DNA from: a virus | Virus record (IMG/VR): IMGVR_UViG_3300037842_000594 | Span: 1-32,314 of that record | Direction: 5' to 3' (one strand) | DNA length: 32,314 bases | Shown: in pieces, positions 1-15,985 of the stretch | Layout: each line of letters opens with the position of its first letter | How positions within the stretch are numbered: the stretch's first letter is position 1 | Notes under the pieces: model-generated | Told to the model about the DNA's origin: nothing | Databases searched by the model: none | What the model saw: the letters and a program-made list of their open reading frames with translations, nothing else | Translations under genes and position numbers: made by a program

Positions 1-704
1 CGTGCGTATATATTTCCGCCATCGTCGTTGTCGACAATCTGTTTCATAAAGTCCCAATGCTCCTCCATCATAAGTGGTTCGCCACCCACCCAATAGATTT
101 CTTCTACTCTGTGTTCGTCTACTGCTTCTTGGAATTCTTTACGTACTATACTATCTTGAAACTTTGATATTTCCCTCTTAACATCAGGGCGCATCCAATT
201 ATTTTTAGGATTGGATAAATCAACCATGTTGTGTTTACGTTCTTCGCTTTCCCAACTTGAACTAAGCATGTCGCCACACATTCTACATTTAAAATTACAT
301 AAGTTGCTAAACCTGTAATCCCAACTAACAGGCTTCATTTGTGTATGTCCGCTACCATCTGTCTTATCCCATATATCCTCGTACTTGTGTTGGAACAGAT
401 GCCAGAAGTAACTCCTATAAACATCAGTGTTTAATAACTTATGATTGCATACTTGACACTCTTCTGGAACCTCATTGTTCATCATCTTCTTTCGAACAGT
501 TTTAACGTGTTCACTATTCCACCATTCATCTAATGTAAGTGGGTTGTACACGCCGTCAGCATCACTAGTATCAATGTACTGTTTGAAATTCTGTGCGGGT
601 TCTCTACTAGCACAACATAGTCTACGTTCGGATTGTGGACTAAGGTACGTATGCACCCATGGTGCTAGACATAACGTATCTGGTCTATTGTCAGGTTTAT
701 TCAT
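1..704 (-). CDS. Radical SAM protein with N-terminal twitch-like Cys module (partial, 3' end outside window)
   Basis: This is the last of seven radical SAM genes in a row, and its C-terminus lies beyond the left edge; 234 codons are visible. The ATG at 704 overlaps the stop of the preceding gene by 8 nt. In the translation I see an N-terminal cysteine set (C12 in LCLAPW, C30-C31, C83 and C86 as CQVC) and then the radical SAM [4Fe-4S] motif CNFKCRMC (C136, C140, C143), followed by GGEP at about 207-210 (WVGGEPLMM). CxxxCxxC with GGEP is diagnostic of SAM-cleaving radical enzymes. The order LCxxPW...CC...CxxC looks like a SPASM/twitch auxiliary-cluster module placed before the core instead of after it. 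It is closest in layout to the two genes immediately upstream (1883-3181 and 697-1899). The substrate is unknown. The ORF is open to the window edge. Confidence 0.88.
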   Translation of the reverse strand, partial: MNKPDNRPDTLCLAPWVHTYLSPQSERRLCCASREPAQNFKQYIDTSDADGVYNPLTLDEWWNSEHVKTVRKKMMNNEVPEECQVCNHKLLNTDVYRSYFWHLFQHKYEDIWDKTDGSGHTQMKPVSWDYRFSNLCNFKCRMCGDMLSSSWESEERKHNMVDLSNPKNNWMRPDVKREISKFQDSIVRKEFQEAVDEHRVEEIYWVGGEPLMMEEHWDFMKQIVDNDDGGNIYA

Positions 705-1899
705 ATCCAATTGCCTTTGCTAATTCATTGTGTGCGTTGGCTAAATTATGATTTCTACGTTGGTCAACACGCTTAATGTCTAGTAACAATTCATAATAAC
801 TAACACCATTGCGTTGCATCATAAATTCAGCAACTTTTTTAAATTCTTCTACATGCTTACTGTTTGAATTTACTAACTTATTGTAAGCAATCTGCTTTGC
901 TTCTTCAGGCAACGAAATAATACTATGCACAGGTGCATCATGAAGCATATTCCAATAAACAAAATCAAAACCTTGTTTATCAATCCATTCTGCTACTTCG
1001 TCTAAGTACAACACATTAAAGATATTAATAGTACTGCATACTTGCAATGATATATTAGTAAACTGTCCTCTAAGTGCTTTAAACTTAGTAATGTTCTCTT
1101 CTACTTTATTCCACTTTGCTTCTGTACGTTGATACTCAAATCGTTCTTTAGTTGCATCTATACTAAATGCAATTTCAACATGTTTAAAGTGGAACCAAAT
1201 ATCTTCGGCTTCTTCGGGGTATATAGTTCCATTGGTGTTGTAATGTATTTCAATGTTGTGTGCAACGCCCATGTCTACTAATGTATTAAGAAATTCAAAA
1301 TGTTCCTTAATCATAAATGGCTCGCCGCCAGTGAACTCTAAGTAACGTATTGCACTAACATGTTCTTTTAATTCATTCCAAAATGTATTGGACTTACGTG
1401 GCCACGCACCTTTTTGCACCATTTCTCGGTGGAAACTAGTCTTACGTTCTTCTTTAGGAAGTGCTTTAAGTTCTTCGCCTGCGTACGTACTAGAACTCCA
1501 CGAACCACATATACGACATTTTAAGTTACATATATTTCCCAACTTTAAATCCAAGAAATACAATTGCTTAGGTTCTTCTGTCCATTCTGTTTCGTGCCTG
1601 AGTATATCTTTTAGTCTATCTAACGTATGTATACGTTTACTAGTTCTGCCTGCATCTTCTTCTGCCCAACAGCGTTGGCATGCTGACGGTTGCTCTCCGT
1701 CTAAAAAATAACGACGTAAATTAGTCATATCGACGCCGTTAGTAATATCATCCAACTTAGCATTGTTTAAATCAAACTTATTGCCTAAGTTATCGCTGAG
1801 TTCGTTCTTTGCTAAACAACACGGACGAACAGTGCCAATTGGACTCGCTTCTAAACTAACCCAAGGTAGAACACAAAATTTATCATGTGGTAATTTCAT
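697..1899 (-). CDS. Radical SAM protein with N-terminal twitch-like Cys module (400 aa)
   Basis: Sixth of the seven tandem radical SAM genes. The N-terminal auxiliary cysteine set is C9 (FCVLPW), C27-C28 (RPCC), and C74/C77 (CQRC). The core has CNLKCRIC (C124, C128, C131), FTGGEPFM (GGEP 191-194), and a later YNTNGT strand typical of the TIM-barrel core. The last ~100 residues are helical-looking and lack a further CxxC, so the only visible extra cluster site is at the N-terminus. The start at 1899 overlaps the upstream stop by 17 nt; the stop at 697 overlaps the next start by 8 nt, so translation is probably coupled. Family knowledge: such enzymes reductively cleave SAM and often act on peptides or sugars. 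The actual substrate is unknown. Part of one operon with three glycosyltransferase-like genes. Confidence 0.9.
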   Translation of the reverse strand: MKLPHDKFCVLPWVSLEASPIGTVRPCCLAKNELSDNLGNKFDLNNAKLDDITNGVDMTNLRRYFLDGEQPSACQRCWAEEDAGRTSKRIHTLDRLKDILRHETEWTEEPKQLYFLDLKLGNICNLKCRICGSWSSSTYAGEELKALPKEERKTSFHREMVQKGAWPRKSNTFWNELKEHVSAIRYLEFTGGEPFMIKEHFEFLNTLVDMGVAHNIEIHYNTNGTIYPEEAEDIWFHFKHVEIAFSIDATKERFEYQRTEAKWNKVEENITKFKALRGQFTNISLQVCSTINIFNVLYLDEVAEWIDKQGFDFVYWNMLHDAPVHSIISLPEEAKQIAYNKLVNSNSKHVEEFKKVAEFMMQRNGVSYYELLLDIKRVDQRRNHNLANAHNELAKAIGYE

Positions 1900-3181
1900 T
1901 TAATTCAGGTATTGAATCAAATATGTTTTCGTTGCGTATTTCATCTAGTTGTCTAGTTTTTTCCCAAAAAGTGTTCAAGTAATTAGTGTTATTTACGTCT
2001 AGAAAATTTATAGCACTAATAAATCCATTAGTGGCACGTTGCAAATCGTCATGTCCTTCTAACCACTTAATATGTTCTTGGAACTTAACACGTATCTTAT
2101 CTTTATAATGTTCAGGAGCAATATCAATACGGTAATGCATTGGGTCTTGCAGAATGTTTATGTTTAAGTCTTGATGCTTTAATAAGCCTTTCTCTACCCA
2201 ATCTTTATGGAAGTCTGTAATGTGCATTGCGTTCATGATGCTTAACGTAGGACTAATATAAAAATCCACATTAGGACAAGTATCTAACATACGTTTGCGA
2301 TTGTCTTCGACAGTGCTCCACTTCGTGCCTTTGCGTATGTACTCTGCACGTTTACCCATTGCATCTAAGCTAGCACCTACACTTACGCTATCAAACTTCT
2401 TCCAGTAATCAAACACATAACGGTCTTTTAATTTAACTTGTGTGAAGTTTGAATTGTATATCAAACGAACATCGAACCGCTCTCTGCGTTCAAGTTCTTC
2501 TAATATAACGTAGTGTTCATCCATCATTAATGGTTCGCCACCTGCAAAGTATATTTGCTCTACGTGGTCGATGTGTTCCATTACTTGGTCAATCATGTCT
2601 GTCTTAGACTTACCACTTACTAAGAGAACTTTGTTCTCTTTTTTCCAATTAGGGTCGCCTGCTTGCTCTGCTAAATGACTTTGGTCTTTATGCCAACTAC
2701 TACTAAAAATGTGCCCACAACTTCTGCAACTTAAATTACACAAGTTACTAAAACGTATATCCCAATAAGTCATTTTAAAATCATGAATAGTACCTGCATC
2801 GGTTGTGTGTAATGCTTTTGCAATGTGATGTCCGTGGTGTTTGTTAGCACTTTTGCGCCCACTAAAGAAGCCATGGGATTCTTGTTCATAACAACCATTA
2901 CAAATATTGTTATGATGCCCCATTAACATATCATTGCGAAGTTCTCGCATGTTATGATTATTCCAAATATCCTTTAGTGCATCTTCTTTATTATTGCCTA
3001 CTGGTATTTGTATGTCTGCATGACAACACGGATACGTTTCGCCTGTTGGATACGAATGCAAATGTATCCACGGGTAGATACAAAACGTATCACTGTCTTT
3101 TAGTAAATGTTTCTCTGATATAGATAAATCTTCTACTTTTATCTTTACCGGTTCCCAACTGTCATATTCGTATTTGCTCAT
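1883..3181 (-). CDS. Radical SAM protein with N-terminal twitch-like Cys module (432 aa)
   Basis: Fifth of the seven tandem radical SAM genes. Residues ~34-97 read like a SPASM/twitch element: C34 in FCIYPWIHLHS, C52-C53 in YPCC, a LKDIWNNHNMRELRNDML segment (~69-86), then CNGC (C94, C97). The radical SAM core follows with CNLSCRSC (C148, C152, C155) and YFAGGEPLMM (GGEP 214-217). The segment SNLCN is shared with the truncated last gene of the cluster, so these two are close relatives. A histidine-rich stretch (KHHGHHI, ~115-120) lies between module and core. The start ATG overlaps the upstream TGA as ATGA (4 nt); the 3' end overlaps the next gene by 17 nt. Substrate not identifiable from sequence. 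Confidence 0.9.
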   Translation of the reverse strand: MSKYEYDSWEPVKIKVEDLSISEKHLLKDSDTFCIYPWIHLHSYPTGETYPCCHADIQIPVGNNKEDALKDIWNNHNMRELRNDMLMGHHNNICNGCYEQESHGFFSGRKSANKHHGHHIAKALHTTDAGTIHDFKMTYWDIRFSNLCNLSCRSCGHIFSSSWHKDQSHLAEQAGDPNWKKENKVLLVSGKSKTDMIDQVMEHIDHVEQIYFAGGEPLMMDEHYVILEELERRERFDVRLIYNSNFTQVKLKDRYVFDYWKKFDSVSVGASLDAMGKRAEYIRKGTKWSTVEDNRKRMLDTCPNVDFYISPTLSIMNAMHITDFHKDWVEKGLLKHQDLNINILQDPMHYRIDIAPEHYKDKIRVKFQEHIKWLEGHDDLQRATNGFISAINFLDVNNTNYLNTFWEKTRQLDEIRNENIFDSIPELNEITT

Positions 3182-4197
3182 AATTTTTTAACCTTAATCT
3201 TATTTCCACTAACTGCATTTAGTTTAAAACTTTCTCCCAAACCATCAGGGCAAAACTTACATTGGGGTATTTCATTTGGCAAAGATTTTACAAACTCTTC
3301 AATAGTATTGATGTTATTCATTGATAAAGGAACATAAGAATTAACTAACTCCATATCCTCTTTGGAAATATTAAATGGAAATTGTTTAACAAACTCGGGC
3401 AATATACCAGAAATTGCACACTTGTACAATTTTCCTTTTACGAAATGGTAATTGTTTTTGCCATGACAACGTTCGTGTGCTTTAGTTGGATTACTATTGT
3501 TTAGATTAAATACACCATTATTAAGAGTTATTGCACTATGGTAAAAAATATCTTCGATATATACCAAAATCTTAACAGAGTTCTTATCGATGTATTCATA
3601 ATAAGTATTGAAATTAATGAAATCCACATCATTCAAACCATTTTCGATACAAATTTCTTTGTATTTAGATGGTAGATTTTTAAAATCTTTATGGGTATCA
3701 CAATCCACCCAATCTTCTTGCTTAATACGATTGTACTGCTGTTGCCATCTATTATCTATATCGATTGGAACAATAGATTTCTTTGTAATTGGAGATTCTA
3801 AAAACTCATGTATATTCTCGTCAATCGTTCCATTTAAAACTTCCTGATTGTGTACGCTCACATGAAAAAATGCACCTGTATCTTTGACTGCTTGGTATAA
3901 CCCCTTCACATAATTCAACCGATACCCATTTGATGTTATTTCTATAGTGGTTTCATCCCATATTTCACGTATTCCATATATCCAATCATTTATAGTAGGG
4001 TTTAATAAAGGTTCACCACCCAATATAGACACATATGGAAGTTCTATAACTTCACCCCATTTTTTATAAACATCAGAATAATCATCCCACCGTTGATGTC
4101 CGCTAAAATGATAATTATTAAAACGATTGCATTCAGTGCAATTTAAATTACAAACATTAGTTATATAAAATTCTGCGTAATTTAGACGATGTGTCAT
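3178..4197 (-). CDS. Radical SAM protein with C-terminal twitch-like Cys module (339 aa)
   Basis: Fourth of the seven. Domain order is the reverse of the neighbours: the radical SAM motif CNLNCTEC sits at the N-terminus (C16, C20, C23) with SILGGEPLL (GGEP 60-63), and the auxiliary cysteines are at the C-terminus: C244 (HERCHGKNNYHF), C260 (GKLYKC), then CKFC (C313, C316). The phrase GKLYKC followed by a late CxxC is typical of twitch/SPASM-type auxiliary cluster domains in sugar- or peptide-acting radical SAM enzymes. It is a clear paralogue of the gene at 4194-5081: motif positions match residue for residue in the N-terminal part and tracts of 30-33 nt are identical. Coupled by ATGA overlaps at both ends. 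No recognisable substrate peptide nearby. Confidence 0.9.
   Translation of the reverse strand: MTHRLNYAEFYITNVCNLNCTECNRFNNYHFSGHQRWDDYSDVYKKWGEVIELPYVSILGGEPLLNPTINDWIYGIREIWDETTIEITSNGYRLNYVKGLYQAVKDTGAFFHVSVHNQEVLNGTIDENIHEFLESPITKKSIVPIDIDNRWQQQYNRIKQEDWVDCDTHKDFKNLPSKYKEICIENGLNDVDFINFNTYYEYIDKNSVKILVYIEDIFYHSAITLNNGVFNLNNSNPTKAHERCHGKNNYHFVKGKLYKCAISGILPEFVKQFPFNISKEDMELVNSYVPLSMNNINTIEEFVKSLPNEIPQCKFCPDGLGESFKLNAVSGNKIKVKKL
4057..4173 (-). repeat. Duplicated tract in paralogous radical SAM genes (copy 1; copy 2 at 4941-5057)
   Basis: With an offset of 884 bases, 33 bases (4057-4089 and 4941-4973), 30 bases (4129-4158 and 5013-5042) and 14 bases (4160-4173 and 5044-5057) are identical. 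They code for the N-terminal radical SAM core of the two adjacent paralogues. Confidence 0.8.
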
Positions 4198-5081
4198 TTT
4201 TTTGGAACGCGTTTCTTATTAGTGTCAGATTCAATGTATTGAACGCCCAATGATTCAGGGCAAAACTTACATTGTGGTATCACATCACAATTAACTAACC
4301 CATCCATAAAGTTGGAAATAGTAGATGAATCTGACTCAACCCTTAGTGGCTTATAATCGTAAATTAATTCAATATCCTCATCACTTATATCAAAATTAAA
4401 CTGTTCGTAGAATTCGACAAGTGTAGTCATGACCATACATTTGTATAATTTACCCCTATTGAACCCATGGCATGTCTTCCCATTGCATGCACTGATTGCT
4501 CTACTCGGATTACTATCATGAAACCTAAACACCCCATTATTTTCTATAAGTGCCGATTTATCAAATACGCTAATTCTTCTTAATGATACTGAAACATTAT
4601 TCCTATCATGCATCTGAACATATCCTTCCCTCGATAATAATGTTTCTCTGTATTCATCGAGTGGGAGTTTAAACTCTTCCAAAAAATCTTCAACATTCAC
4701 CAACATCGATTCTATGTCATTTTTATTATGGATACTGATTTCAATGGAAACCCTACCCCCATATTGTTTAATGGTATCATATAACCCTCTAACTCTGTTA
4801 ATATGTGTTCCATTCGTGGAAATGTACACATCAGTTTCATTCCATAATGTAGAAATACCATTAACCCAATCCAATATCGTTGGGTTCATCAATGGCTCTC
4901 CACCCAAGATTGATATCCTCCCAAATTGGGCAATATCACTCCATTTTTTATAAACATCAGAATAATCATCCCAATTCTGTTGCCCATGAAAATAAAAGTT
5001 ATTAAACCTATCGCATTCAGTGCAATTTAAATTACAAACATTGGTTATATAAAATTCCATTTCATCCAAATAAAATTTCAT
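4194..5081 (-). CDS. Radical SAM protein with C-terminal twitch-like Cys module (295 aa)
   Basis: Third of the seven and paralogue of the next gene. I choose the ATG at 5081 instead of the first in-frame ATG at 5096: it makes an ATGA overlap with the upstream stop, as at the two following junctions, and it places EFYITNVCNLNC at the same residue numbers as in the paralogue. With this start the radical SAM cysteines are C16, C20, C23 (CNLNCTEC), GGEP is at 60-63, and the C-terminal auxiliary set is C199 (plus C204), C215 (GKLYKC) and C271/C274 (CKFC). About 40 residues shorter than its paralogue, mainly missing sequence between the core and the C-terminal module (the NNRWQQQYN... region). A radical SAM enzyme of unknown substrate; both the core and the auxiliary cluster ligands are intact, so it should be active. 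Confidence 0.88.
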   Translation of the reverse strand: MKFYLDEMEFYITNVCNLNCTECDRFNNFYFHGQQNWDDYSDVYKKWSDIAQFGRISILGGEPLMNPTILDWVNGISTLWNETDVYISTNGTHINRVRGLYDTIKQYGGRVSIEISIHNKNDIESMLVNVEDFLEEFKLPLDEYRETLLSREGYVQMHDRNNVSVSLRRISVFDKSALIENNGVFRFHDSNPSRAISACNGKTCHGFNRGKLYKCMVMTTLVEFYEQFNFDISDEDIELIYDYKPLRVESDSSTISNFMDGLVNCDVIPQCKFCPESLGVQYIESDTNKKRVPKK

Positions 5082-6415
5082 AACATGTTGTACCATTCTG
5101 CTAGTGTAGTAAATGTATTAGTGAAATCTTTATTACGTCTAGTGTCGTACTGTTCGTAAAACTTCTTAAAATCATTTAACAATGCAGGCATCTCAAACGT
5201 ATCACTATGCGGGGTTTTAACTACGTCTAAGTAATCAATTAAACGCTGTGTATGATTAATTTCGTGCTCGTGTAGCAACGGATTATCACGGTTGTTGTCT
5301 AACCAATCTTGGAGATTATCCTTGTACTTAGTTTTAATATCTTCAGGAAGTATTAACGGGCTTTGGAAACTCGGAAACCTTAATATATTTAATGTGAAGT
5401 TAGGGAAGTCTTTACCATGCGATGCTTTTTTATCCAAACACCAACTTAAAAATTCAGGCAATGTTTCTAAGCATAATGCATTAACTGTACACATAACATG
5501 CAACCCTTTAAGGTTTCCTCTGTGCAATAACAAGTCCATATTGCTTGTCCATTGTTTCCAATTTAATCCATCTCTAATGTATTCTGCTTGTTTACCTATA
5601 CTCTCGTTGCTAGTATACAAATGAAAGTTTTTGATGCCTTTAGTGGCATCTAATAACTTTAGCATTGTTTTCTTCTCGATGCCTAAGTTACTATTCATAG
5701 CAAACTGTACTTTAGATTTACTTTCTTTTAACCAATCTAATAAACGCCATGTATGCGGACTCATTAATGGCTCGCCACCTGTTAAACGTAATTCATCTAA
5801 TGTATGCTGTAAATCACTTTCCCACCATTTAAAAAATGCTTCAATGTACGGGTTGGTTTCAGTTGGCTTGTAACGTTGTGATGTATCGTGCGTATGTGTG
5901 AAATGATTTCTTCCGTCGCTAATTAAATCTTCGAAACCACCGTTTTTATTAATGTCTTTAACCCACTCTGTACTAAATGCAGGATTGCAGTAACTACACG
6001 CAAATTGACATGTTCTATCGAATGCAATTTCTAATGTTTTTAAGTTTATGTCGTTGTTGGGGTTTGATGTGTATGCTATTTCTAAATCATTATCTTCGTA
6101 TATCTTAGACTTATAAACTCTATCACTAATATTGTCTTTAGCAATATCCTCAATCTTCCAACAATACTCACACCCACTAGGACGTTCACCACATTGCATT
6201 TGCTTACGTTCTTCTTTCTTTTGTGCAGTATTATGCAATGCTTTTGGATTTACTATTACATCATCAACAGGAACATAATGCGGTAATGGATGATGGCAAC
6301 TTGTTGTCATTCCACTTCCTAACCATATAGTTGCGTTGTACCATTTAGCACCACAAAAACTATCACTCTTGGTGTCTAGTACCCTGTGTTTATATTCTAA
6401 ATCTGTTTCACTCAT
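5078..6415 (-). CDS. Radical SAM protein, FCxAKW subfamily (445 aa)
   Basis: Second of the seven. N-terminal auxiliary cysteines: C21 (SFCGAKW), C40 (TSCHHP), and C82/C85 (CEYCWK); a conserved ALHNT..KK..RK.M block (~59-73) lies between them. The core has CQFACSYC (C136, C140, C143) and RLTGGEPLMS (GGEP 213-216), preceded by a NPYIEAFFKWW segment. The gene at 6408-7817 has the same blocks in the same order, so the two form a distinct subfamily with a single C40 in place of the CC pair seen in the 697-3181 genes. The start at 6415 overlaps the upstream stop by 8 nt (ATGAGTGA); the TGA stop is shared as ATGA with the next gene. The C-terminal ~150 residues show no further CxxC. Substrate unknown. 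Confidence 0.9.
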   Translation of the reverse strand: MSETDLEYKHRVLDTKSDSFCGAKWYNATIWLGSGMTTSCHHPLPHYVPVDDVIVNPKALHNTAQKKEERKQMQCGERPSGCEYCWKIEDIAKDNISDRVYKSKIYEDNDLEIAYTSNPNNDINLKTLEIAFDRTCQFACSYCNPAFSTEWVKDINKNGGFEDLISDGRNHFTHTHDTSQRYKPTETNPYIEAFFKWWESDLQHTLDELRLTGGEPLMSPHTWRLLDWLKESKSKVQFAMNSNLGIEKKTMLKLLDATKGIKNFHLYTSNESIGKQAEYIRDGLNWKQWTSNMDLLLHRGNLKGLHVMCTVNALCLETLPEFLSWCLDKKASHGKDFPNFTLNILRFPSFQSPLILPEDIKTKYKDNLQDWLDNNRDNPLLHEHEINHTQRLIDYLDVVKTPHSDTFEMPALLNDFKKFYEQYDTRRNKDFTNTFTTLAEWYNML

Positions 6416-7817
6416 AACTACACCGCTTACATTCGTTCCACCAATTACTCATCTCTGGAAAAGTTTTTAAAAAATTAGTACCATGTCTCTTATCAGACTC
6501 ATTAAAGAATCTATAAAAGTCTGCTTTTTGACTATTAACATACACATCACTCAATGGTTCTTGCATCCACGCAATATCTCTTTCCATGCGTTTTACTTCA
6601 TAATCTTTGAACCCGTGGTACAAGTCACCTTCTGTTTCTAAGTTACGTTCCATCCAACTTCTAATACTATTTAACTTCATTACGTACGGCTCTGGCAATA
6701 ACTGCATACTCTGCCAACTTGGCGTACGTAACACGGGCGTATCAAACCATACACGTTGAAAGTCTTTACTATATGTTTTGCGCAACTCCAAAATGCCTTC
6801 CATTAACTTATCTAAGTTACTAACAGACAAGTTATTCATAGTAATAATAAACGTAATGCTACTATAGTTAGGTACTTCTTCCAAGAACTGATGCACTCGT
6901 TTCCAAAGTAAATCAAAGTCTAATCCTTCTCTGATGTACTCTACTTGTGTCCCCCATGTATCTACACTAACGTATTGCATGAAGTGTTCAATCTTACCTG
7001 TGCATAGCAATTTAACATAATCTAGGTACTTGTCCCACAATGCATCAGTTACACTAAGGTTGCTAGTAACATTAAGATGCAAATCGGACTTAGGATTATC
7101 AAGTACATAGTTAAATACTCTGTACGTATTCTTATCCATTAGTGGCTCGCCACCTGTCATGCGAAAGTGTTCCAACTCTTTGTATAAATCAGGCCACCAT
7201 TCCCAAAATGCATCTACATAAGGATTCTCTTGGCTGTGCGGTATTGGTAATCGATTACCAACAAAGTGCTCTAGTGCATTATGCGGTGTGCTAGTTGGGT
7301 ATGCACCTAAGTCCTTTGTCTCTGACATCCAACTACTACTGAATTGTGGGCTACAGTAACTACACTTTAGGTTACACGCATTGTTAAAGTTTACCTCAAC
7401 ATAACTGGGTGTAATATCTGCTTGTGGGTTCTCTACAATAGCATCAAAATCCTTAGATGCCCATGGCTCGCCTGACCTATAATGTCTATCACTTAAATCG
7501 CCGTTGCTTTCCATCTTCCAACAGTACTGACATTCATCGGGTTTCTTACCTACCATCATTAATTTTCGAATGTCTTTCTTCTGCTTTGTGTTGTGCAATG
7601 CTGACGGATTATTCTTTAATGTCTCTATTGGTATTTCGTGCAAGGGCGGATGATAGCAAGAGTTATTTAATCCAGTTGGTAAATGTAGGCTAACTTGTTT
7701 CCACTTTGCTAAACAGAAACTTGGACTAATGGTGTCTAGTTTTTCTTTTGCTATTTCTGCATCTGATAAGAATTTACTTTTAAAACCATCATCGGCTCTT
7801 TCATCACCCTTATTCAT
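6408..7817 (-). CDS. Radical SAM protein, FCxAKW subfamily (469 aa)
   Basis: First of the seven radical SAM genes in transcription order and the largest. N-terminal auxiliary cysteines: C35 (SFCLAKW), C54 (NSCYHP), C96/C99 (CQYCWK), with a SALHNTKQKKDIRKLM block between. The core has CNLKCSYC (C148, C152, C155), an ENPYVDAFWEWW segment (~197-208), and RMTGGEPLMD (GGEP 222-225). The extreme C-terminus carries one more CxxC (CKRC), absent from its paralogue at 5078-6415. The start abuts the stop of the glycosyltransferase-like gene directly (TAA-ATG), joining the radical SAM run to the sugar-transfer genes in one transcript. The first ~30 residues (charged, KGDERADDGFKSK) are an extension compared with the paralogue. 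Function beyond SAM radical chemistry is unknown. Confidence 0.9.
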   Translation of the reverse strand: MNKGDERADDGFKSKFLSDAEIAKEKLDTISPSFCLAKWKQVSLHLPTGLNNSCYHPPLHEIPIETLKNNPSALHNTKQKKDIRKLMMVGKKPDECQYCWKMESNGDLSDRHYRSGEPWASKDFDAIVENPQADITPSYVEVNFNNACNLKCSYCSPQFSSSWMSETKDLGAYPTSTPHNALEHFVGNRLPIPHSQENPYVDAFWEWWPDLYKELEHFRMTGGEPLMDKNTYRVFNYVLDNPKSDLHLNVTSNLSVTDALWDKYLDYVKLLCTGKIEHFMQYVSVDTWGTQVEYIREGLDFDLLWKRVHQFLEEVPNYSSITFIITMNNLSVSNLDKLMEGILELRKTYSKDFQRVWFDTPVLRTPSWQSMQLLPEPYVMKLNSIRSWMERNLETEGDLYHGFKDYEVKRMERDIAWMQEPLSDVYVNSQKADFYRFFNESDKRHGTNFLKTFPEMSNWWNECKRCSYE

Positions 7818-8741
7818 TTACCATCCTTCCGCTTTTCTAATTACATCAATCTCTTTTATGGTAGCGCCAACATTGCGCCAATTACTCATGTAATGTTGTT
7901 TAAAGAATTTACTTTGTTCCGGTGAGTAACTAACAGCAGGTAAATCCAATTGTTCATTTAATTTCTCACCATAATCATAGAATGCATCAACATCAAATTC
8001 TTTATCAACCTTGTTCCATATCTCTTTAAGATTGTCAAACCACTGTACTTGTATGTAATCCCAATCAGTAAGCATAGTCATGTACGTTCCTTGTCTAGCA
8101 CCAAGCATTGCCCAATTGCCGTACTCGACATCATCACCAACGTTTTGCCATATACTTAAATGGTCCATATTACGCTTATGTACATTATCTTTAAAATCTA
8201 TCAAACTAGGTTTTGCTCCCCTATCTAAGCACATCTTAACACCCTCACGGAATCCTGCTCTCCAAGCATGAAATGCACTGCCATTAGGGTATGTTGTACT
8301 GTAACAATCATGCATTGGCCAATACAGTGGGTCGAAACAGAACTCAACACAAGTTTCGTCACTTCCATCACTACTCTCATGTGTTTGCATGTTCTGTATG
8401 AACTCTTTTGTCCAACAACTTAATCCGCCATTGCCGTACATCAGTCCATTAATATGATTCTTTGCTCTCCAACGAAACACTGCTTTCTCGTATTGTTCAT
8501 TTTTAATATCTAATTGCAAATTAAAAAATTCAGGGGCAGGTAAGTTATCCCCGTCTATCAAAATAAACCGTTCTGTTTGACTTGCGTCAGCGGCGGCTTT
8601 ATGTGCGGCATCACTACCTTCAACCCCATCTACTCTTACTGCCCACGGAACCATGTTCTTTATCTTAACCCAGAATTCTTCCTTCTGTGGTTCGTCATAA
8701 CTCAAATAAACCACATCCAAATCTGCTATATCAATTATCAT
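7818..8741 (-). CDS. Glycosyltransferase-like protein with DGD motif (307 aa)
   Basis: The N-terminus reads like a GT-A (Rossmann-like) nucleotide-sugar transferase: DVVYLSYDEP (9-18), VPWAVRVDGVEGSDAAHKA (31-49), then FILIDGDN with D63-G-D65 as the likely DxD metal/nucleotide-sugar site. MYGNGGLSCW (~101-110) resembles the acceptor/donor loop of such enzymes. I have seen similar proteins annotated as hypothetical proteins or glycosyltransferases in phages and in surface-polysaccharide loci; that is recollection, not a search. The start overlaps the upstream 108-aa gene by 11 nt, with AAGAAG as a possible ribosome binding site; the stop abuts the first radical SAM start. The donor sugar and acceptor cannot be told. 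Confidence 0.7.
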   Translation of the reverse strand: MIIDIADLDVVYLSYDEPQKEEFWVKIKNMVPWAVRVDGVEGSDAAHKAAADASQTERFILIDGDNLPAPEFFNLQLDIKNEQYEKAVFRWRAKNHINGLMYGNGGLSCWTKEFIQNMQTHESSDGSDETCVEFCFDPLYWPMHDCYSTTYPNGSAFHAWRAGFREGVKMCLDRGAKPSLIDFKDNVHKRNMDHLSIWQNVGDDVEYGNWAMLGARQGTYMTMLTDWDYIQVQWFDNLKEIWNKVDKEFDVDAFYDYGEKLNEQLDLPAVSYSPEQSKFFKQHYMSNWRNVGATIKEIDVIRKAEGW

Positions 8742-9057
8742 AACTTCTTAAACTCCAATTCGTGCCTTCATCTGAAATTAACGTAATATCACCGTCACTA
8801 CAAGTTGATGCGTTGCCGTGTTGTGTTAACTTACTAATATCTTTGAATATCATTTCAACTAGTTCACCGTCTTTAACATACACATTATAGTTTGCTTGTG
8901 TATAAACTTCCACACCGACTACAATGTAATCACCGTCCACTACATCCATACTATAAAATAATGGTTGTCCATTATCTTTATTATAGTACAGCATATACTT
9001 AGATACTACCTTAGTAGTATTCTTCATATTACTTATTGCTTTAAAAAAATTGCTCAT
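8731..9057 (-). CDS. Small protein of unknown function (108 aa)
   Basis: A soluble, mainly beta-looking small protein (SKYMLYYNKDNGQPLFY at 19-35, DGDYIVVGVEVYTQANYNVYV at about 42-62) with no signal peptide or membrane segment. I do not recognise a family. It has a single cysteine (ASTCSDG, about residue 86). It is held between two glycosyltransferase-like genes with 17-nt and 11-nt overlaps, which argues that it is real and co-expressed. It could be a partner, a regulator or a substrate of the neighbouring enzymes; nothing in the sequence decides this. No leader/core cleavage motif such as a double-glycine was seen, so a classical RiPP precursor is not supported. An alternative start at the internal Met (residue 11) is possible. 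Confidence 0.72.
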   Translation of the reverse strand: MSNFFKAISNMKNTTKVVSKYMLYYNKDNGQPLFYSMDVVDGDYIVVGVEVYTQANYNVYVKDGELVEMIFKDISKLTQHGNASTCSDGDITLISDEGTNWSLRSYDN

Positions 9058-9856
9058 AATGCTTATTTAATACCTTACTAAAATCTTTAACTTGATAATG
9101 AAATGGGTACATCTGCTCTACGGTATCAATCCTAATACGAGATTTGTTTAACTCGTATACCATTTCCTTTGTCCAATCTTCGTCTGCAAGGAAGTTGATA
9201 TGCCCTTTCATATGAATCATACTTGGATAAGATGTGTTTGGTAATGTTACGTTCTCAATTCCCATAATTGTACTAGCGATTGCATACACAACATCGGTTG
9301 TTCCTGGGTCTGTATGACCACCTTTAATAGTTTTTTTAACTTCGTTCCAATTATTAAAAATATCTTTAACTAAGTTAAAAAAGGTTTGTGCAGTTTCGCT
9401 TAAACGCCAATATGTTATTGCGTTGTACACATCAGGTAAATTATTAACATCAAATATCTTTCGATAATGCCTACTAGTAGTGTACTCATTTAAATAGTTT
9501 CTTGCCCCTGTTGAAATTACTACATCTCGCTTCTCAAGCATCGTCCACCAATGTTCAATACTGTGTGGAATAATCATATCTGCTTCTAACTTAATTGTTT
9601 GTCTAAACGGACTTGCATAGAATACTTGCCAATCATTCTTTAACTTCCAATCACTATCGGGTGCTTGGTCACCATACGGTAATGGCACTACATAATCAAA
9701 TACTTCGTTAGTAACATCACTAGAAGTAACTAAACAAATCTTAGCATTTGGTGTATGTAATTTAATACTACGGGCAAGTGCTAACGCACAATCTACATAA
9801 TCAGTTTCCTGTGTGTTGTCTGCAACAATTAAGTATCCGCGTTCTTCTTTAAGCAT
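9041..9856 (-). CDS. Glycosyltransferase-like protein (271 aa)
   Basis: The opening GYLIVADNTQETDYVDCALALARSIK... followed by KICLVTSS (39-46) is the usual first part of GT8-like or nucleotide-diphospho-sugar transferase folds. The segment QTIKLEADMIIP places E91-A92-D93 where the DxD metal motif is expected, with EAD in place of DAD. The middle contains GGHTDPGTTDVVYA (~178-191) and the end HMKGHINF (~217-224), plausible donor-binding and catalytic-loop stretches. It shares general layout with the gene directly upstream (9849-10667), so the two are probably distant paralogues. It overlaps neighbours by 8 and 17 nt. Sugar and acceptor unknown; the altered first acidic position leaves catalytic activity less certain than for the neighbour. 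Confidence 0.68.
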   Translation of the reverse strand: MLKEERGYLIVADNTQETDYVDCALALARSIKLHTPNAKICLVTSSDVTNEVFDYVVPLPYGDQAPDSDWKLKNDWQVFYASPFRQTIKLEADMIIPHSIEHWWTMLEKRDVVISTGARNYLNEYTTSRHYRKIFDVNNLPDVYNAITYWRLSETAQTFFNLVKDIFNNWNEVKKTIKGGHTDPGTTDVVYAIASTIMGIENVTLPNTSYPSMIHMKGHINFLADEDWTKEMVYELNKSRIRIDTVEQMYPFHYQVKDFSKVLNKHYEQFF

Positions 9857-10667
9857 GTATCACCTTGTCTAATGCAAACTTATTAATGAAGTGGAAATCT
9901 GTTCCGTTAATAATTGACTTATAAGGCTTCTTCTCTCCATTGATGGTCTTTGTGTATGAAATTTTAAACTTAGTATCATCTAACTGTTCTAAATCAACAT
10001 CATCATACGCACTAGGCATAGCCCATGGTATTGTTGGTATTGCATCTAGTTTGTGTCCATAAAGGATACTTAGTGATATACTAACAATAAAATCATTTCG
10101 CATTATATTCCCACTAAACTTATACAAATTACTATAATGTGCGTAGTTATCTTTGACCATTTCCATTAACTGAAACATTTCTTTGCCCATTTTGGATTTT
10201 CTAAAGAACAACACAGTTGCCCAATAGTGAGGGAACTTATGCTTGCCGAATGTGTTATATGGTGCGAACCTGTTTGTTCCTGTGATATCGTATACATCTC
10301 TATGACACAAAACATCGTGCTTAGATTCAAACACTCTTAGCAATTGGTCACTGTTAACAACGTAATCGCTATCAATTGCAATAGTTTCGTCGTACGGCGA
10401 TAAGTTATACGACTGAAATCTATTTGAGTTATACCACGTACCAACGTTGCCTTCTTCTGTGTGCTTGAAGTTTCTTTGTCCTCCAGAAATAGCATCACTT
10501 AGAATAAGATTATGTTTGAATTTTCTTCCGTTAATACTCTTTGTATCTGTGATAATAGTAACAGGTAAATCTAAGTACGTATTAACACGGTCGGCGACCC
10601 AATCTGCTTGTTCCAAGTAATCAATTTTTTCGTTGCTGAACGCAAATATTAAAATACCACGTGTCAT
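9849..10667 (-). CDS. Glycosyltransferase-like protein with DSD motif (272 aa)
   Basis: Begins with a hydrophobic strand GILIFAFS and VTIITDT (36-42), then YDETIAIDSDYVV with D99-S100-D101 as the likely DxD motif of a GT-A glycosyltransferase. Later blocks such as HYWATVLFFRKS (~147-158) and FSGNIMRNDFIVS (~184-196) fit the region that shapes the acceptor site, and a terminal FHFINK supplies a possible metal-ligand histidine. It starts as ATGA overlapping the stop of the 101-aa gene and is followed with 8-nt overlap by another glycosyltransferase-like gene, so it belongs to the same operon. It might glycosylate a virion fibre protein or build part of a surface glycan; this is inference from position next to tail-fibre genes. 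Confidence 0.72.
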   Translation of the reverse strand: MTRGILIFAFSNEKIDYLEQADWVADRVNTYLDLPVTIITDTKSINGRKFKHNLILSDAISGGQRNFKHTEEGNVGTWYNSNRFQSYNLSPYDETIAIDSDYVVNSDQLLRVFESKHDVLCHRDVYDITGTNRFAPYNTFGKHKFPHYWATVLFFRKSKMGKEMFQLMEMVKDNYAHYSNLYKFSGNIMRNDFIVSISLSILYGHKLDAIPTIPWAMPSAYDDVDLEQLDDTKFKISYTKTINGEKKPYKSIINGTDFHFINKFALDKVIHA

Positions 10668-10969
10668 CTTTGTCGACTAACCTCATCATATTCATTAACC
10701 CAAGCGTTCATTTGTTCTTGATAACGTTCTTTAGCACTATGTAATAGTTCAGTTCGGTTAACTTGACATGGGTTGCCGTACGTGTCACATATCACAATAT
10801 CATCGGTACTAAATGCTGTAAGTAGTGTGATTAACTCAGGGTTAGCACACCACATACCTCCACTCAATGCAAATAACATCTTTGCTTCGTATTTCTCTTT
10901 AAGAACTTGCTTCGCGGATTCGTAATCAAAACGTTCTTTTACTGTTTGTGTTAGATTTTCTATATTCAT
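10664..10969 (-). CDS. Conserved-type small protein, first gene of the modification operon (101 aa)
   Basis: I take the ATG at 10969 as start. The longer in-frame ATG at 11014 lies inside the stem-loop of a Rho-independent terminator and adds 15 residues of low plausibility (MPFFNACSLCK...). The product is small, charged and soluble, with a VKERFDYESAKQVLKEKYEAK helix early on, SGGMWCANPELITLL in the middle, DTYGNPCQVNR and a helical C-terminus (AKERYQEQMNAW). I associate this pattern with small hypothetical proteins of marine T4-like phages but know no function. It is followed by an ATGA overlap into a glycosyltransferase-like gene, so it is the promoter-proximal member of the radical SAM/glycosyltransferase operon. 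No catalytic motif was seen. Confidence 0.72.
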   Translation of the reverse strand: MNIENLTQTVKERFDYESAKQVLKEKYEAKMLFALSGGMWCANPELITLLTAFSTDDIVICDTYGNPCQVNRTELLHSAKERYQEQMNAWVNEYDEVSRQR

Positions 10970-11002
10970 ATTACTACTTATTTTACATAAGGAACACGCA
11001 TT

Positions 11003-11029
11003 AAAAAAGGGCAATTAAGCCCTTTTTTT
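11003..11029 (-). terminator. Rho-independent terminator after the tail-fibre block
   Basis: A perfect 10-bp inverted repeat AAAAAAGGGC / GCCCTTTTTT with an AATTAA loop, ending in a U-run on the minus-strand transcript. It lies 23 bases downstream of the stop at 11052 and would end the structural-gene transcript. Being symmetrical, it could also work in the other direction. Confidence 0.85.
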
Positions 11030-11051: not shown

Positions 11052-11990
11052 TTATGAATCAGTGTATGTTACTGTTGCAGTAGGTGTTCCCCAAGATTTA
11101 GAAATATATGTAGTACTAGGCTGTCTAATAGTCAAATTACATTGAATATTAAGATTAATTGTTTCATCTTGTGTTGCGCCTGAGTTACCTGATGTATTTG
11201 CATTATCAAATAATTTCACTTCAATAATAACGTTACTTGAAGTGTAATGATATCTACATGTAATGTAGTTCGAAGTGTACAAGTACGTTGAATCGTACTG
11301 CTTAAACAATTCCTGCCATGAACCAGTGAGGTTGAAGAAACCTGTGTTTGATTCTGTTGTCACTGAACCTGCACCACCCTTCTTATCACAACCTTGGTAT
11401 GATGTTCCTGCTAATGTAACTGATGTTGCAGGACCAGAAGAACCAGCTGATGTTAACCAAACTGTACCAAAGTTTGAGATTAGGTTACCCCAACCAGTAT
11501 CTTTAGAACCTGAACCGCCACCTTGGTTCGTAAAGTTAATACCAATCATACCACCACAGTTGAAGAACTCTCTTGCTTCCGTGTCGTTTGCAAAGTCTGT
11601 AGTAGCAGTGAATGTTGTATGAGTATTCCACGTTGTGGTGTTATTACTACTTGCAGTAATATCAGAACCATGTGCATGCACGTTACCACGGTTAGTAGTA
11701 CATGTTGAAATGTCACCCGATAAATCTGCTAATGCACTTATTGTATTACCTGCACTAACCGTAGAAAATGAAATACCTAAAGTTGCTTGGTGACTGCCAA
11801 TAGTCTCAAGTCTACTCAATAATGTTTCCCATTGTGTTGCTGTAATTGATGCTCCTGCACTGACTGAACTCAATGCACTCCCTTGACCATAACCCGTATT
11901 ACCCGATGCTGTCCCCCAAATACTATTAATATCTGTTGAAAAACCATTGTAATGGTCGTCTAATATATTTCCACCTGCTGAATAAGCCAT
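11052..11990 (-). CDS. Virion structural / fibre-type protein (312 aa)
   Basis: Rich in Gly, Ser, Thr and Asn with few charged residues, as expected for an extracellular beta-structured fibre or decoration protein. The N-terminus (AGGNILDDHYNGFSTDI, then INSIWGTASGNTGYGQ and ITATQWETLLSRLETIG) resembles small structural proteins I associate with marine T4-like phages. Cys at ~97, ~144, ~201, ~245 and ~283 are scattered. The C-terminal half (residues ~200-312) looks like beta-strands ending in ATVTYTDS. An AGGA ribosome binding site lies 8 bases before the ATG. It is the last gene before the terminator at 11003-11029, so it closes the tail-fibre block. The exact location in the virion is not known. 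Confidence 0.75.
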   Translation of the reverse strand: MAYSAGGNILDDHYNGFSTDINSIWGTASGNTGYGQGSALSSVSAGASITATQWETLLSRLETIGSHQATLGISFSTVSAGNTISALADLSGDISTCTTNRGNVHAHGSDITASSNNTTTWNTHTTFTATTDFANDTEAREFFNCGGMIGINFTNQGGGSGSKDTGWGNLISNFGTVWLTSAGSSGPATSVTLAGTSYQGCDKKGGAGSVTTESNTGFFNLTGSWQELFKQYDSTYLYTSNYITCRYHYTSSNVIIEVKLFDNANTSGNSGATQDETINLNIQCNLTIRQPSTTYISKSWGTPTATVTYTDS

Positions 11991-12047: not shown

Positions 12048-13526
12048 TTAATTGACCTTCACTATTGCTTCTATTGTTCCATTGCCTGTTGTTGTTTTTG
12101 TTTCTAATGACCTACCAATAACATTAAATGCAGTAATTTCACTTTGCGTTGCCGCTCTTGCAAAACCATTACCTGCTGATACCAATCTGTCCCCTTTCAT
12201 TACCTTTCCTGTAACTTTCACAGGAACTCTCCCATTAATTGCAATTGGTGGATGTGTGTCACTATTTCCTGCACCAGCATTCATTAAATACGCCGCATTC
12301 GTGCTTATTACACCAAATACATTGTCTGTTAATTCTTCAATTACTTCTGTAATTTCATTAATTCCACCCAACTCAACGACTGTTCCTGCTTCATATACGT
12401 CGTCTGCTTCAAAGCGCTCTGCTAAGTCAGCGTATTGTGCCGTTGAAGCGACGCCATTAAACGTAGTTGCATATACATTTTGAAATTTCAATGCGTTTGA
12501 ACCAAAGTCACGAGTATTATTTATATCAGGTGTAATATCCCCTGTAATTGTATTTGACCCATCACGTGATAATCCAGATGCTCCAGCACCACTTACTTGA
12601 CCATCTACGTAAGATTTTGTAGCAACTCCCAAACTTGCAGTTGGGTCAGCATTTACCAATGCCTTTCCTGTTGCTCCATCTATCGTAATAACCGTGGTCT
12701 GAACACCACCATCATTAACTGATAACTCCAAGTCACCATCTGATGTTATATTTTTAAAAGATACGTCACTTCCACTAACACTTATAGACGCATCACTATC
12801 TGCACCAACTGATAAACCACTATCATTAAGAACACCCATCGTACCACTCGTGGTATCGTTTGCAGTAGACCTTAAGAAATCAGTTGAATTTAAATTATCT
12901 AATTTATCTGAATTAGATGCAGTTCCTTGAAACATTGCCCCAGTAACTGTGCTTGATATTTGAAATCCAGGCTTAATAGTTGCAAATCCTGTAATTCCCA
13001 ACGAAGGGGTAAATTCAGCATCATCACTAATGAATGCCATAGCCAAATTTTCAATTGAAAATTTAACTACTACGTGGTCAACTGCACCATCGTCTGTTAC
13101 TGTAACCACTTCTGGACCTGACGTACCTACACCCACTGATGTTGGAGGTCCAACTAATACAAATGATGAACCGTTATAAATTCTTAATTGATTATTAGCA
13201 CTATCAAACCATAAGTCACCAGACGTCAATGATGATGCCGGCTCTGCACCAGACACCTTTACACTACTGATTGGTTTAAATTCTGAACCGTTATAAACGT
13301 TCAATACCGTACTAGTAGTATCATACCAAAGCTGACCTGCTAGTGGACTGCCTGGTGCAGATGAATTGGCACTATTCTCCAAAATCTTAACAAAATTTTC
13401 ACCAAGAAATTCGCCATACCCCGCATAGTTTCTACCAACAACGGTAATACTACTAGTCGTATCAACTGTGCCATCTGCTACAGTTGTGAATATACTTCCA
13501 TTTGTTTTATTAATTACATATGACAT
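12048..13526 (-). CDS. Tail-fibre protein, paralogue of 14506-15975 (492 aa)
   Basis: The N-terminal ~130 residues contain two repeats of the type GQLWYDTTSTVLNVYNGSEFK and GDLWFDSANNQLRIYNGSSF, a pattern common in phage fibre proteins. Residues ~215-315 are a shaft-like segment (GVLNDSGLSVG, VSFKNITSDGDLELS, ADPTASLGVATKSYVDGQV) almost the same as in the gene at 14506-15975. The C-terminal ~130 residues (YADLAERFEADDVYEAG, VFGVISTNAAYLM, GRVPVKVTGKVMKGD) resemble the C-terminal module found in some phage fibres and reminiscent of Peptidase_G2-type autoproteolytic domains; the identification is tentative. Preceded by three tandem late-promoter-like units and a weak GGA ribosome binding site. 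Confidence 0.82.
   Translation of the reverse strand: MSYVINKTNGSIFTTVADGTVDTTSSITVVGRNYAGYGEFLGENFVKILENSANSSAPGSPLAGQLWYDTTSTVLNVYNGSEFKPISSVKVSGAEPASSLTSGDLWFDSANNQLRIYNGSSFVLVGPPTSVGVGTSGPEVVTVTDDGAVDHVVVKFSIENLAMAFISDDAEFTPSLGITGFATIKPGFQISSTVTGAMFQGTASNSDKLDNLNSTDFLRSTANDTTSGTMGVLNDSGLSVGADSDASISVSGSDVSFKNITSDGDLELSVNDGGVQTTVITIDGATGKALVNADPTASLGVATKSYVDGQVSGAGASGLSRDGSNTITGDITPDINNTRDFGSNALKFQNVYATTFNGVASTAQYADLAERFEADDVYEAGTVVELGGINEITEVIEELTDNVFGVISTNAAYLMNAGAGNSDTHPPIAINGRVPVKVTGKVMKGDRLVSAGNGFARAATQSEITAFNVIGRSLETKTTTGNGTIEAIVKVN
12706..12761 (-). repeat. 56-nt perfect repeat shared by the two tail-fibre genes (copy 2 at 15113-15168)
   Basis: The two 56-base tracts are identical on direct reading and code for the same segment of both fibre proteins (NITSDGDLELSVNDGG). 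A second identical stretch (about 26 bases) begins at 12811 and at 15218 with the same 2407-base offset. Confidence 0.85.
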
Positions 13527-13537
13527 ATGATTTTTCC

Positions 13538-13576
13538 AATGTATTTATTTAATGTATTTATTTAATGTATTTATGT
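13538..13576 (-). repeat. Three tandem 13-nt units containing late-promoter-like AATAAATA/CATAAATA
   Basis: On the plus strand the unit aatgtatttattt starts at 13538, 13551 and 13564; the third ends ...tatgt. Read on the minus strand each unit offers NATAAATAC (CATAAATAC in the most upstream copy, AATAAATAC in the other two), close to the T4 late promoter TATAAATA. The array fills the gap between the stop at 13579 and the start at 13526. It may give several late transcription starts for the tail-fibre gene, or be a simple tandem expansion. Confidence 0.7.
13568..13575 (-). promoter_or_regulatory. Late-promoter-like octamer CATAAATA upstream of tail-fibre gene
   Basis: The minus strand reads CATAAATA, one base from the T4 late consensus TATAAATA. 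The same octamer occurs before 16726 and before 32115. It lies 41 bases upstream of the ATG at 13526, a normal distance for a late transcript with a leader. Confidence 0.5.
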
Positions 13577-13578
13577 TA

Positions 13579-14502
13579 TTAATCCCAATCCCAAGTTTGC
13601 ATAGTTTCTATACTTGGTAAAAATACGATATTAACTGTTCCATTGCCACCATTGTCATTATTGGCTATTCCTATAAGTGGGCTCACACCTTGAATAAAAT
13701 CCTCATTATAATAACTAGAACCTGCTTCACCAGGATATCCATCACTATCATAAGAACCCATGTATGCGCCACCATCTCCACCAGGTACGCCGGCACCACC
13801 ACCACCACCTGCGCCACCATCTCCAGTGCCACAATTTGCTCCATTACCACCTACAGTATCCATACTAGAACCTCCTGCTAACACAAGCATAGTAGTAACA
13901 CTTGAACTGTCCTTTCCTTTTGCTTGACTTGAAGATAATTGTGCTTGATTACCACTTCCCGAACCACCAGAACCAGACCCAGCAACCATAACCAATGTAC
14001 CATCAGGCATAGAAATGGATGTTGAACCACCGCCACCGCCTCCACCACCTGATGAACCATGTGCACCAGCATTTCCGCCATTTCCACCATTTCTATGCCC
14101 TGCGCCACCATCTCCACCCGATGCAGATGATGCATGTCCTTGTCCATTGCCACCAACAGCACCAACAACATAACTCAACGTTGTAAATGGTTCCACGTCT
14201 ATAGTTCCACCCATAACAGCACCTGCACCACCAGGACTAGATGCGTGACTACCATCACCTCCACCCGAACCACCGTTTGCGCCAGTTATTATACATATCG
14301 CACGGTATGCTCCTTGGGGGACTACATAAGTTCCCGCTCCTGTCGTAGTAATAGTGGCAGTAACAATATCATATAATGATGTTTGCCAAATTCCGTCTTT
14401 CTTAATGTACACTTCTTTGCAACGGCGCCACGACCCCGAGTCCTTGATATGGACTTCAGTCGCTTCTTCCCAACTACCTGAATGCTTTATACTTAATGGC
14501 AT
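13579..14502 (-). CDS. Glycine-rich adhesin-like fibre protein (307 aa)
   Basis: The N-terminal ~45 residues hold three short repeats of one unit (IKHSGSWEEATEV, HIKDSGSWRRCKEV, YIKKDGIWQ). Residues ~55-80 form a beta-rich segment (TITTTGAGTYVVPQGAYRA). From ~84 to ~265 the protein is extremely rich in Gly, including an eight-Gly run and many GGxGG blocks spaced by short strands, before a hydrophobic C-terminal strand (TVNIVFLPS). This composition recalls the gp38-type adhesins of T2/S16-like phages, in which polyglycine type II helices carry the receptor-contacting loops. That is an analogy by composition, not a demonstrated homology. The gene sits between two paralogous tail-fibre genes, where a receptor-binding tip protein would be expected. 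Confidence 0.75.
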   Translation of the reverse strand: MPLSIKHSGSWEEATEVHIKDSGSWRRCKEVYIKKDGIWQTSLYDIVTATITTTGAGTYVVPQGAYRAICIITGANGGSGGGDGSHASSPGGAGAVMGGTIDVEPFTTLSYVVGAVGGNGQGHASSASGGDGGAGHRNGGNGGNAGAHGSSGGGGGGGGSTSISMPDGTLVMVAGSGSGGSGSGNQAQLSSSQAKGKDSSSVTTMLVLAGGSSMDTVGGNGANCGTGDGGAGGGGGAGVPGGDGGAYMGSYDSDGYPGEAGSSYYNEDFIQGVSPLIGIANNDNGGNGTVNIVFLPSIETMQTWDWD

Positions 14503-15980: not shown

Positions 15981-15985
15981 CCTCT
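15981..15985 (-). promoter_or_regulatory. Ribosome binding site AGAGG for the 489-aa tail-fibre gene
   Basis: The minus strand reads AGAGG five bases before the ATG at 15975 and overlaps the TAG stop of the preceding gene (15984-15986). It supports the chosen start. Confidence 0.6.

Follow-up and report, generated by a model that had tools for sequence, protein, structure and literature searches.

A conserved five-gene core of N-twitch radical SAM enzymes beside the tail-fibre genes of a putative jumbo-type phage lineage, with a possible role in glycan tailoring

Phages with many genes for radical S-adenosylmethionine (SAM) enzymes have been described since 2010, in each case without a function. 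The Campylobacter phages CP220 and CPt10 were reported in that year to carry 11 and 12 such genes, respectively, which drew the remark 'highly unusual' (PMC2853527), and they were followed by the T4-like phage TARA_ERS488813_N000010 with 12 genes in 2017 (PMC5332604), by pelagimyophages in 2020 (PMC7029224) and by Aeromonas phage 332-Vera, with eight genes in a structural cluster, in 2025 (PMC12390700). In this study, a further locus was analysed, found in the IMG/VR virus record IMGVR_UViG_3300037842_000594 (positions 1 to 32,314; this whole stretch of 32,314 nucleotides is referred to as the window). It comprises seven consecutive radical SAM genes (g1 to g7, within positions 1–7817), five of which form the conserved core of a cassette located next to tail-fibre genes, and this cassette may serve a glycan-tailoring pathway.

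All seven open reading frames (ORFs) lie adjacent to each other on the minus strand, as had been claimed in a first description made from the sequence alone (the original prediction), which also proposed searches with hidden Markov models of radical SAM and twitch families. A six-frame search of the record gave seven matches to PF04055, and five of the proteins passed the cut-off (170 bits for the whole protein) of NF033640 (N_Twi_rSAM), an NCBIfam twitch-domain radical SAM subfamily model without an assigned function, in which the auxiliary-cluster domain precedes the core. These are g1 (3–710; truncated by the contig start, hence a partial score of 193.9 bits), g2 (697–1899; 339.1 bits, with PF04055 and SPASM above cut-off), g3 (1883–3181; 398.4 bits), g6 (5078–6415; 311.2 bits) and g7 (6408–7817; 329.5 bits), with which the radical SAM run of the cassette begins. 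The Pfam SPASM model also hits the N-terminus of g1–g3, and with N_Twi_rSAM E-values of 1e-57 to 1e-119 for the five proteins the radical SAM assignment is not due to chance. The other two, g4 (3178–4197) and g5 (4194–5096), exceed the PF04055 cut-off, but with 17.7 and 31.1 bits against NF033640 they fall outside this subfamily; they are accessory radical SAM proteins in which the core comes first and a twitch-like CX15C..CxxC set stands at the C-terminal end, and they constitute a tandem pair of 46% identity. Three subfamilies can thus be distinguished, as predicted: g6 and g7 (FCxAKW type), g1–g3 (FCxxPW type) and g4 and g5 (N-terminal core). The junctions from g1 to g7 overlap by 14, 17, 4, 4, 19 and 8 nucleotides, within the 4–19 given by the original prediction, while g7 and the next gene (c3) abut with 0 nucleotides between them. 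Among PDB sequences, the radical SAM proteins matched viperin best (E-value of 1.5e-7, core region only); membership in the viperin family was rejected, as the scores did not come near the viperin_w_prok cut-off of 180.

Each of the seven proteins contains CxxxCxxC, a GGEP-type SAM motif and a second set of cysteines, and their integrity was assessed in alignments of 71–79 orthologues per family, in which the core and twitch cysteines are essentially invariant. Eight cysteines of g1 are invariant in 72 orthologues, the ligands of g6 in 75–76 and those of g7 in 71/71, the g4/g5-type ligands are kept in 78–79 of 79 relatives, and the lone exception among the five core families is C28 of g2, conserved in 75 of the 76 orthologues in which the remaining ligands of this protein are invariant. 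The median pairwise ratio of nonsynonymous to synonymous substitution rates (dN/dS) for the five core genes, calculated between close relatives, is 0.06–0.11. The ligands of the set g1–g7 are therefore intact, and its five core genes are under strong purifying selection. This bears out the claim that all ligands are preserved; neither the ligand loss nor the decay that would have spoken against a working pathway was seen.

Gene order was compared in IMG/VR relatives selected by radical SAM similarity, with genes labelled by best hit and tree. The order g7-g6-g3-g2-g1 recurs in these viruses, and all five genes are full length in 56 loci. A tree built from 116 proteins places g1, g3, g6 and g7 in a single clade each (SH-aLRT support of 98–100), and likewise g2 except for one long-branch row; the five core genes are thus old, separate clades. 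Direct adjacency was observed for g6 and g3 in 64/74 loci and for g3 and g2 in 56/73, whereas the pair g5-g4 is inserted between g6 and g3 in the window only, among 74 loci; the slots g7-g6 and g2-g1 often hold a transferase-like insert (families c11 and c25). The conserved system consequently consists of five genes (g1, g2, g3, g6 and g7), not of seven as originally proposed. The accompanying claim that the run is not just one gene copied in place stands for the five old clades, with the reservation that g4 and g5 are a 46%-identical pair.

For an unbiased ascertainment, loci were also collected with a baseplate-adjacent structural protein (15984–16589) as the query instead of the radical SAM genes. 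The block c9-c10-c5-c4-c3, which connects the tail fibres with the radical SAM run, was found in 42/42 loci with at least 9 kb of downstream sequence, and g7 is present before the end of the flank in 41 of these (some of the contigs are near-duplicates, so that there are somewhat fewer independent loci). The cassette is therefore almost fixed in its lineage, which, judging from a gp6-like baseplate protein nearest (about 33% identity) to those of Atu_ph07/RaK2/121Q-type jumbo phages, is probably an uncultured jumbo-type lineage. Large related records encode 6–21 N-twitch genes each, a minimum where the record is a fragment. In loci L374, L378, L367, L361 and L379, single extra N-twitch genes are located between T4-like core genes; the sites in relatives include the interval between gp47-like and gp46-like genes and the neighbourhood of genes for a late sigma factor, a terminase and a recA-like protein. 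In this scattered distribution, the extra genes resemble morons. Bacterial homologues are single genes in Bacteroidota, alphaproteobacteria and others, for which a common neighbourhood was not found, and they were dropped as a guide to function. A 22-kb contig binned in a Pelagibacter metagenome-assembled genome (L160) encodes a relative of g2 (45% identity), and may be either a phage contig, and then a hint to the host, or a binning error.

The original prediction had joined the radical SAM run to glycosyltransferases, and this is upheld by three glycosyltransferase-like genes of the minus strand situated between g7 and the tail fibres. The first of them, c3 (7818–8741), encodes a probable GT-A-type glycosyltransferase with an invariant DGD motif and 64–71% identity to its relatives; its structural model (predicted local distance difference test, pLDDT, of 73) gave a PBCV-1 capsid glycosyltransferase as the top Foldseek hit (E-value of 3.6e-3) and weak similarity (VIA Z of 7–8.7) to GT-A and nucleotidyltransferase folds. 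It is followed by c14 (8731–9057), a conserved 108-amino acid protein for which no PDB relative was found, and by c4 (9041–9856), a probable glycosyltransferase with a weak GT8/glycogenin-like signal (glycogenin-1 is the sole match of its profile in the PDB, with a best E-value of 0.17); c4 and c3 are present in 42/42 loci. Gene c5 (9849–10667) would encode a glycosyltransferase-like protein related to c4, with which it shares phrog_1903 and a DxD-like motif. Next, on the same strand as c3, c14, c4 and c5, are c10 (10664–10969, the start being set by alignment), coding for a conserved protein of about 100 amino acids found in 42/42 loci, and the adjoining tail-fibre-like c9 (11052–11990), which has 29% serine plus threonine, is 26–39% identical among loci and is a candidate acceptor. 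PDB sequence searches with the profiles of c14, c7 and c5 gave no useful match.

Further partners are encoded downstream of g1 in the relatives: c1, carbamoyltransferase c2 (PF16861/PF02543), amidinotransferase c17, DegT aminotransferase c29 (PF01041), the SGNH-like c22 and c18, and the transferase-like c7 and c16. The carbamoyltransferase occurs in most relatives, while the amidinotransferase, DegT-type aminotransferase and SGNH proteins occur in many. The profile of c17 matches AGAT, SxtG and inosamine-phosphate amidinotransferase with E-values of 1e-23 to 1e-30. None of 1100 ORFs of the island is predicted to have three or more membrane spans. The 360-amino acid protein c1 (L011:12451–13551), encoded immediately after g1 in 60 loci, matched no Pfam or PHROG family. 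On the other side of the cassette, two tail-fibre-like genes of the c12 family (12048–13526 and 14506–15975) flank a gene for a glycine-rich protein (13579–14502), which suggests a fibre duplication. A freestanding HNH/homing endonuclease gene (31486–32115) is located directly upstream of the gp6-like baseplate gene. An ORF of 3788 amino acids, compared with the VrlC protein of pelagimyophages, gave 'virion structural protein' only.

Two signals, both on the minus strand, separate the cassette from the fibre gene: a terminator-like hairpin, AAAAAAAGGGCTTAATTGCCCTTTTTT (11003–11029), between c9 and c10, and a sigma70-like -10 element, TGTAAAAT (10980–10987), upstream of c10. Hairpins beyond those of shuffled sequences were found in 19/24 junctions of the c9/c10 type, and a TATAAT-like element precedes c10 in 22/27 loci, versus 12.8 +/- 2.7 in mononucleotide shuffles. 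The automatically called ORF of c10 (10664–11014) has a TTG start that falls within the hairpin, and the start supported by alignment is the ATG at 10969. Transcription of the cassette thus probably starts at c10, separately from the fibre gene. Of the operon originally placed at 1–7817, the overlap-packed arrangement was confirmed, but the unit seems to start upstream, at c10. The T4-type late promoter TATAAATA was considered and is not enriched in the window. Short repeats, ATAAATACATTA, at 13540–13577 precede the fibre gene at 13526, and CATAAATA, which could be a late promoter of this phage, has further copies ahead of structural genes (16739 and 32147). In two relatives (L054 and L056) the element before c10 is CGATAAATAG, which is late-promoter-like, while most relatives have the sigma70-like -10 element.

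Given an intact, selected, multi-gene set accompanied by two to three soluble glycosyltransferase-like proteins, the multi-step pathway envisaged at the outset is a fair inference. Aminoglycoside pathways include twitch enzymes with sugar substrates (BtrN), and a link of the cassette with glycans is moderately supported, because sugar-type partners are found in the core island and the same pairing recurs in other phages. We tentatively favour, at somewhat less than an even chance, a virus-encoded glycan-tailoring pathway with the radical SAM run as its core, most likely acting on virion host-recognition proteins. Cytosolic glycosyltransferases would assemble a short glycan, and the twitch enzymes, each equipped with one auxiliary 4Fe-4S cluster and using a 5'-deoxyadenosyl radical derived from SAM, could carry out redox reactions, epimerisations or dehydrations on one sugar residue after another, by analogy with BtrN- and DesII-type reactions. 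Amine and hydroxyl groups might afterwards be amidinated or carbamoylated, and g4 and g5 would be optional extra steps, at this place in this phage alone. As the carrier of the glycan, a host-recognition protein of the virion is envisaged, for instance the tail fibre c9 next to the cassette, which is rich in serine and threonine. This acceptor is less certain; it is suggested by the fixed place of the cassette beside tail fibres, the composition of c9, the lack of membrane proteins (which favours a cytosolic acceptor) and the conservation of the enzymes, exemplified by c3, which far exceeds that of the fibre and fits a shared chemistry better than surface mimicry adapted to individual hosts. 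A bolder version, possible but doubtful, is that a fibre glycan made by the phage is processed by the five N-twitch enzymes one after the other, as an obligatory, dedicated radical chemistry of the whole jumbo-type lineage, yielding sugars otherwise not known from phages.

Several observations weigh against glycan tailoring. At the sequence level, the assignment of c3, c4 and c5 as glycosyltransferases is weak, and dispersed N-twitch paralogues, considered as additional support for a role in sugar chemistry, were discarded since they are not enriched near sugar genes in three records (p of 0.65, 0.80 and 0.47). They adjoin gp46/gp47-like, terminase and recombination genes, so the N-twitch family is not tied to glycans alone. 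In addition, the sigma70-like promoter of the cassette and the upstream terminator make it less likely that cassette and fibre are simply co-expressed late, and these signals would fit the early or host-type expression expected if the same enzymes altered a host envelope glycan (e.g. the lipopolysaccharide core or O-chain), thereby blocking adsorption of other phages or sticking of virions to debris. GT8-rich host-recognition clusters were read in this way by the authors of the pelagimyophage study (PMC7029224), a GT8-like signal is present in c4 and GT8 in Vibrio phage K566, and lipopolysaccharide-core transferases are soluble or peripheral, like the proteins of the island. However, host-specific chemistry should vary with the host, whereas the cassette enzymes are nearly fixed while the fibres diverge, and in every long locus the cassette adjoins the tail-fibre genes; we regard envelope modification as a serious, though less likely, alternative.

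With regard to the substrate, g3, whose model (pLDDT of 95.2) has the fold of SPASM/twitch radical SAM enzymes, is equally close (VIA Z) to DesII (12.7), SuiB (12.7), BlsE (12.6) and anSME (12.4), that is, to sugar and peptide enzymes alike, and the fold therefore cannot decide the substrate class. SPASM/twitch domains are common in maturases of ribosomally synthesised and post-translationally modified peptides (RiPPs). With anSME, SuiB and SkfB among the closest folds of g3 and a Ser/Thr-rich fibre as a neighbour, backbone modification (epimerisation or the formation of thioether or C-C links) of a RiPP-like peptide or of a fibre protein has some appeal, but it is improbable: the partners are sugar-type enzymes, all scores are far below the equivalog cut-offs of known RiPP maturases, c10 and c14 are conserved over their full length rather than having a leader and a variable core, and no precursor-like small gene was seen in the overlap-packed run, in which tiny ORFs in other frames were not systematically searched. 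Sets of glycosyltransferases and carbamoyltransferases are also known for hypermodified phage DNA. Hypermodification of DNA bases (with glycosylation and carbamoylation) is unlikely, since PF00303 (thymidylate synthase/dCMP-hydroxymethylase) had no match in 13 large related records in which the positive controls were detected; TET/JBP proteins were likewise not found in the large related records, though in this search no positive control gave a signal. Auxiliary small-molecule metabolism of the host, in line with the metabolic boosting proposed by the authors of the CP220 study (PMC2853527), shares with DNA modification the weakness that the tail-fibre adjacency and the pairing with an amidinotransferase are left unexplained, and the two together are rated as quite improbable. 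Most improbable of all is that the radical SAM genes share no joint pathway and represent mainly a moron-like family that proliferates; the many copies per large record, placed between core T4-like genes, would agree with this, but not the five fixed paralogues with their fixed order and matching partners, nor the essentially invariant ligands and a dN/dS of about 0.1.

Radical SAM enzymes are costly and oxygen-sensitive. Five of them in a fixed order, with up to 21 per record and strong purifying selection, suggest a part in basic phage life rather than an occasional auxiliary gene. If the glycan-tailoring reading is true, these phages make their own modified sugars, destined for the surface of the virion or of the host, and this would matter for adsorption and host range as well as for enzyme discovery. 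The original prediction spoke of an undescribed system, which is correct for the function and the conserved cassette but not for the phenomenon, as clusters of several radical SAM genes in phages are already known (PMC2853527, PMC5332604, PMC7029224, PMC12390700). The conserved five-paralogue cassette appears to be new: no description of the N-twitch core of five paralogues, of its near-fixation in a lineage or of the operon start was found in the searchable literature. Since cultured phages with parallel clusters exist, the old remark of 2010 has become a testable question.

Comparison with these phages reveals both shared and distinct features. Moraphages (PMC12619734) were considered as possibly the same lineage; the word 'radical' is absent from the paper. 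By description, TARA_ERS488813_N000010 and 332-Vera resemble the window in that one phage carries many radical SAM genes, and 332-Vera also in having them among tail-fibre genes. Synechococcus phage S-SCSM2R has one g4/g5-like radical SAM gene beside an amidinotransferase, a DegT protein and glycosyltransferases. In Vibrio phages K566 and K567 four N-twitch genes are present, interleaved (in K566) with GT8, GT4-like and GT8 genes; however, identity to the proteins of the window is only about 23–26%, the order differs, and three of the genes are annotated as radical SAM, with no function assigned. CP220 and CPt10 have a cluster in which five radical SAM genes are combined with an amidinotransferase gene and, in CP220, with two NDP-sugar transferase genes (PMC2853527); CPT_0086 of CP220 matches the amidinotransferase profile of the cassette (1.8e-20). 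In contrast to the window, the radical SAM proteins of this system are hardly or not matched by the N-twitch profile, the five-paralogue order is lacking and the cluster is exchangeable, whereas here it is fixed. A likeness in location is seen in the pelagimyophage host recognition cluster, also a glycosyltransferase island by tail fibres, sometimes with radical SAM cassettes (PMC7029224). That cluster is hypervariable and spans the region from VrlC/tail fibres to gp14, while in the lineage described here the radical SAM core is nearly fixed and the flank with the tail fibres is present in 42/42 loci.

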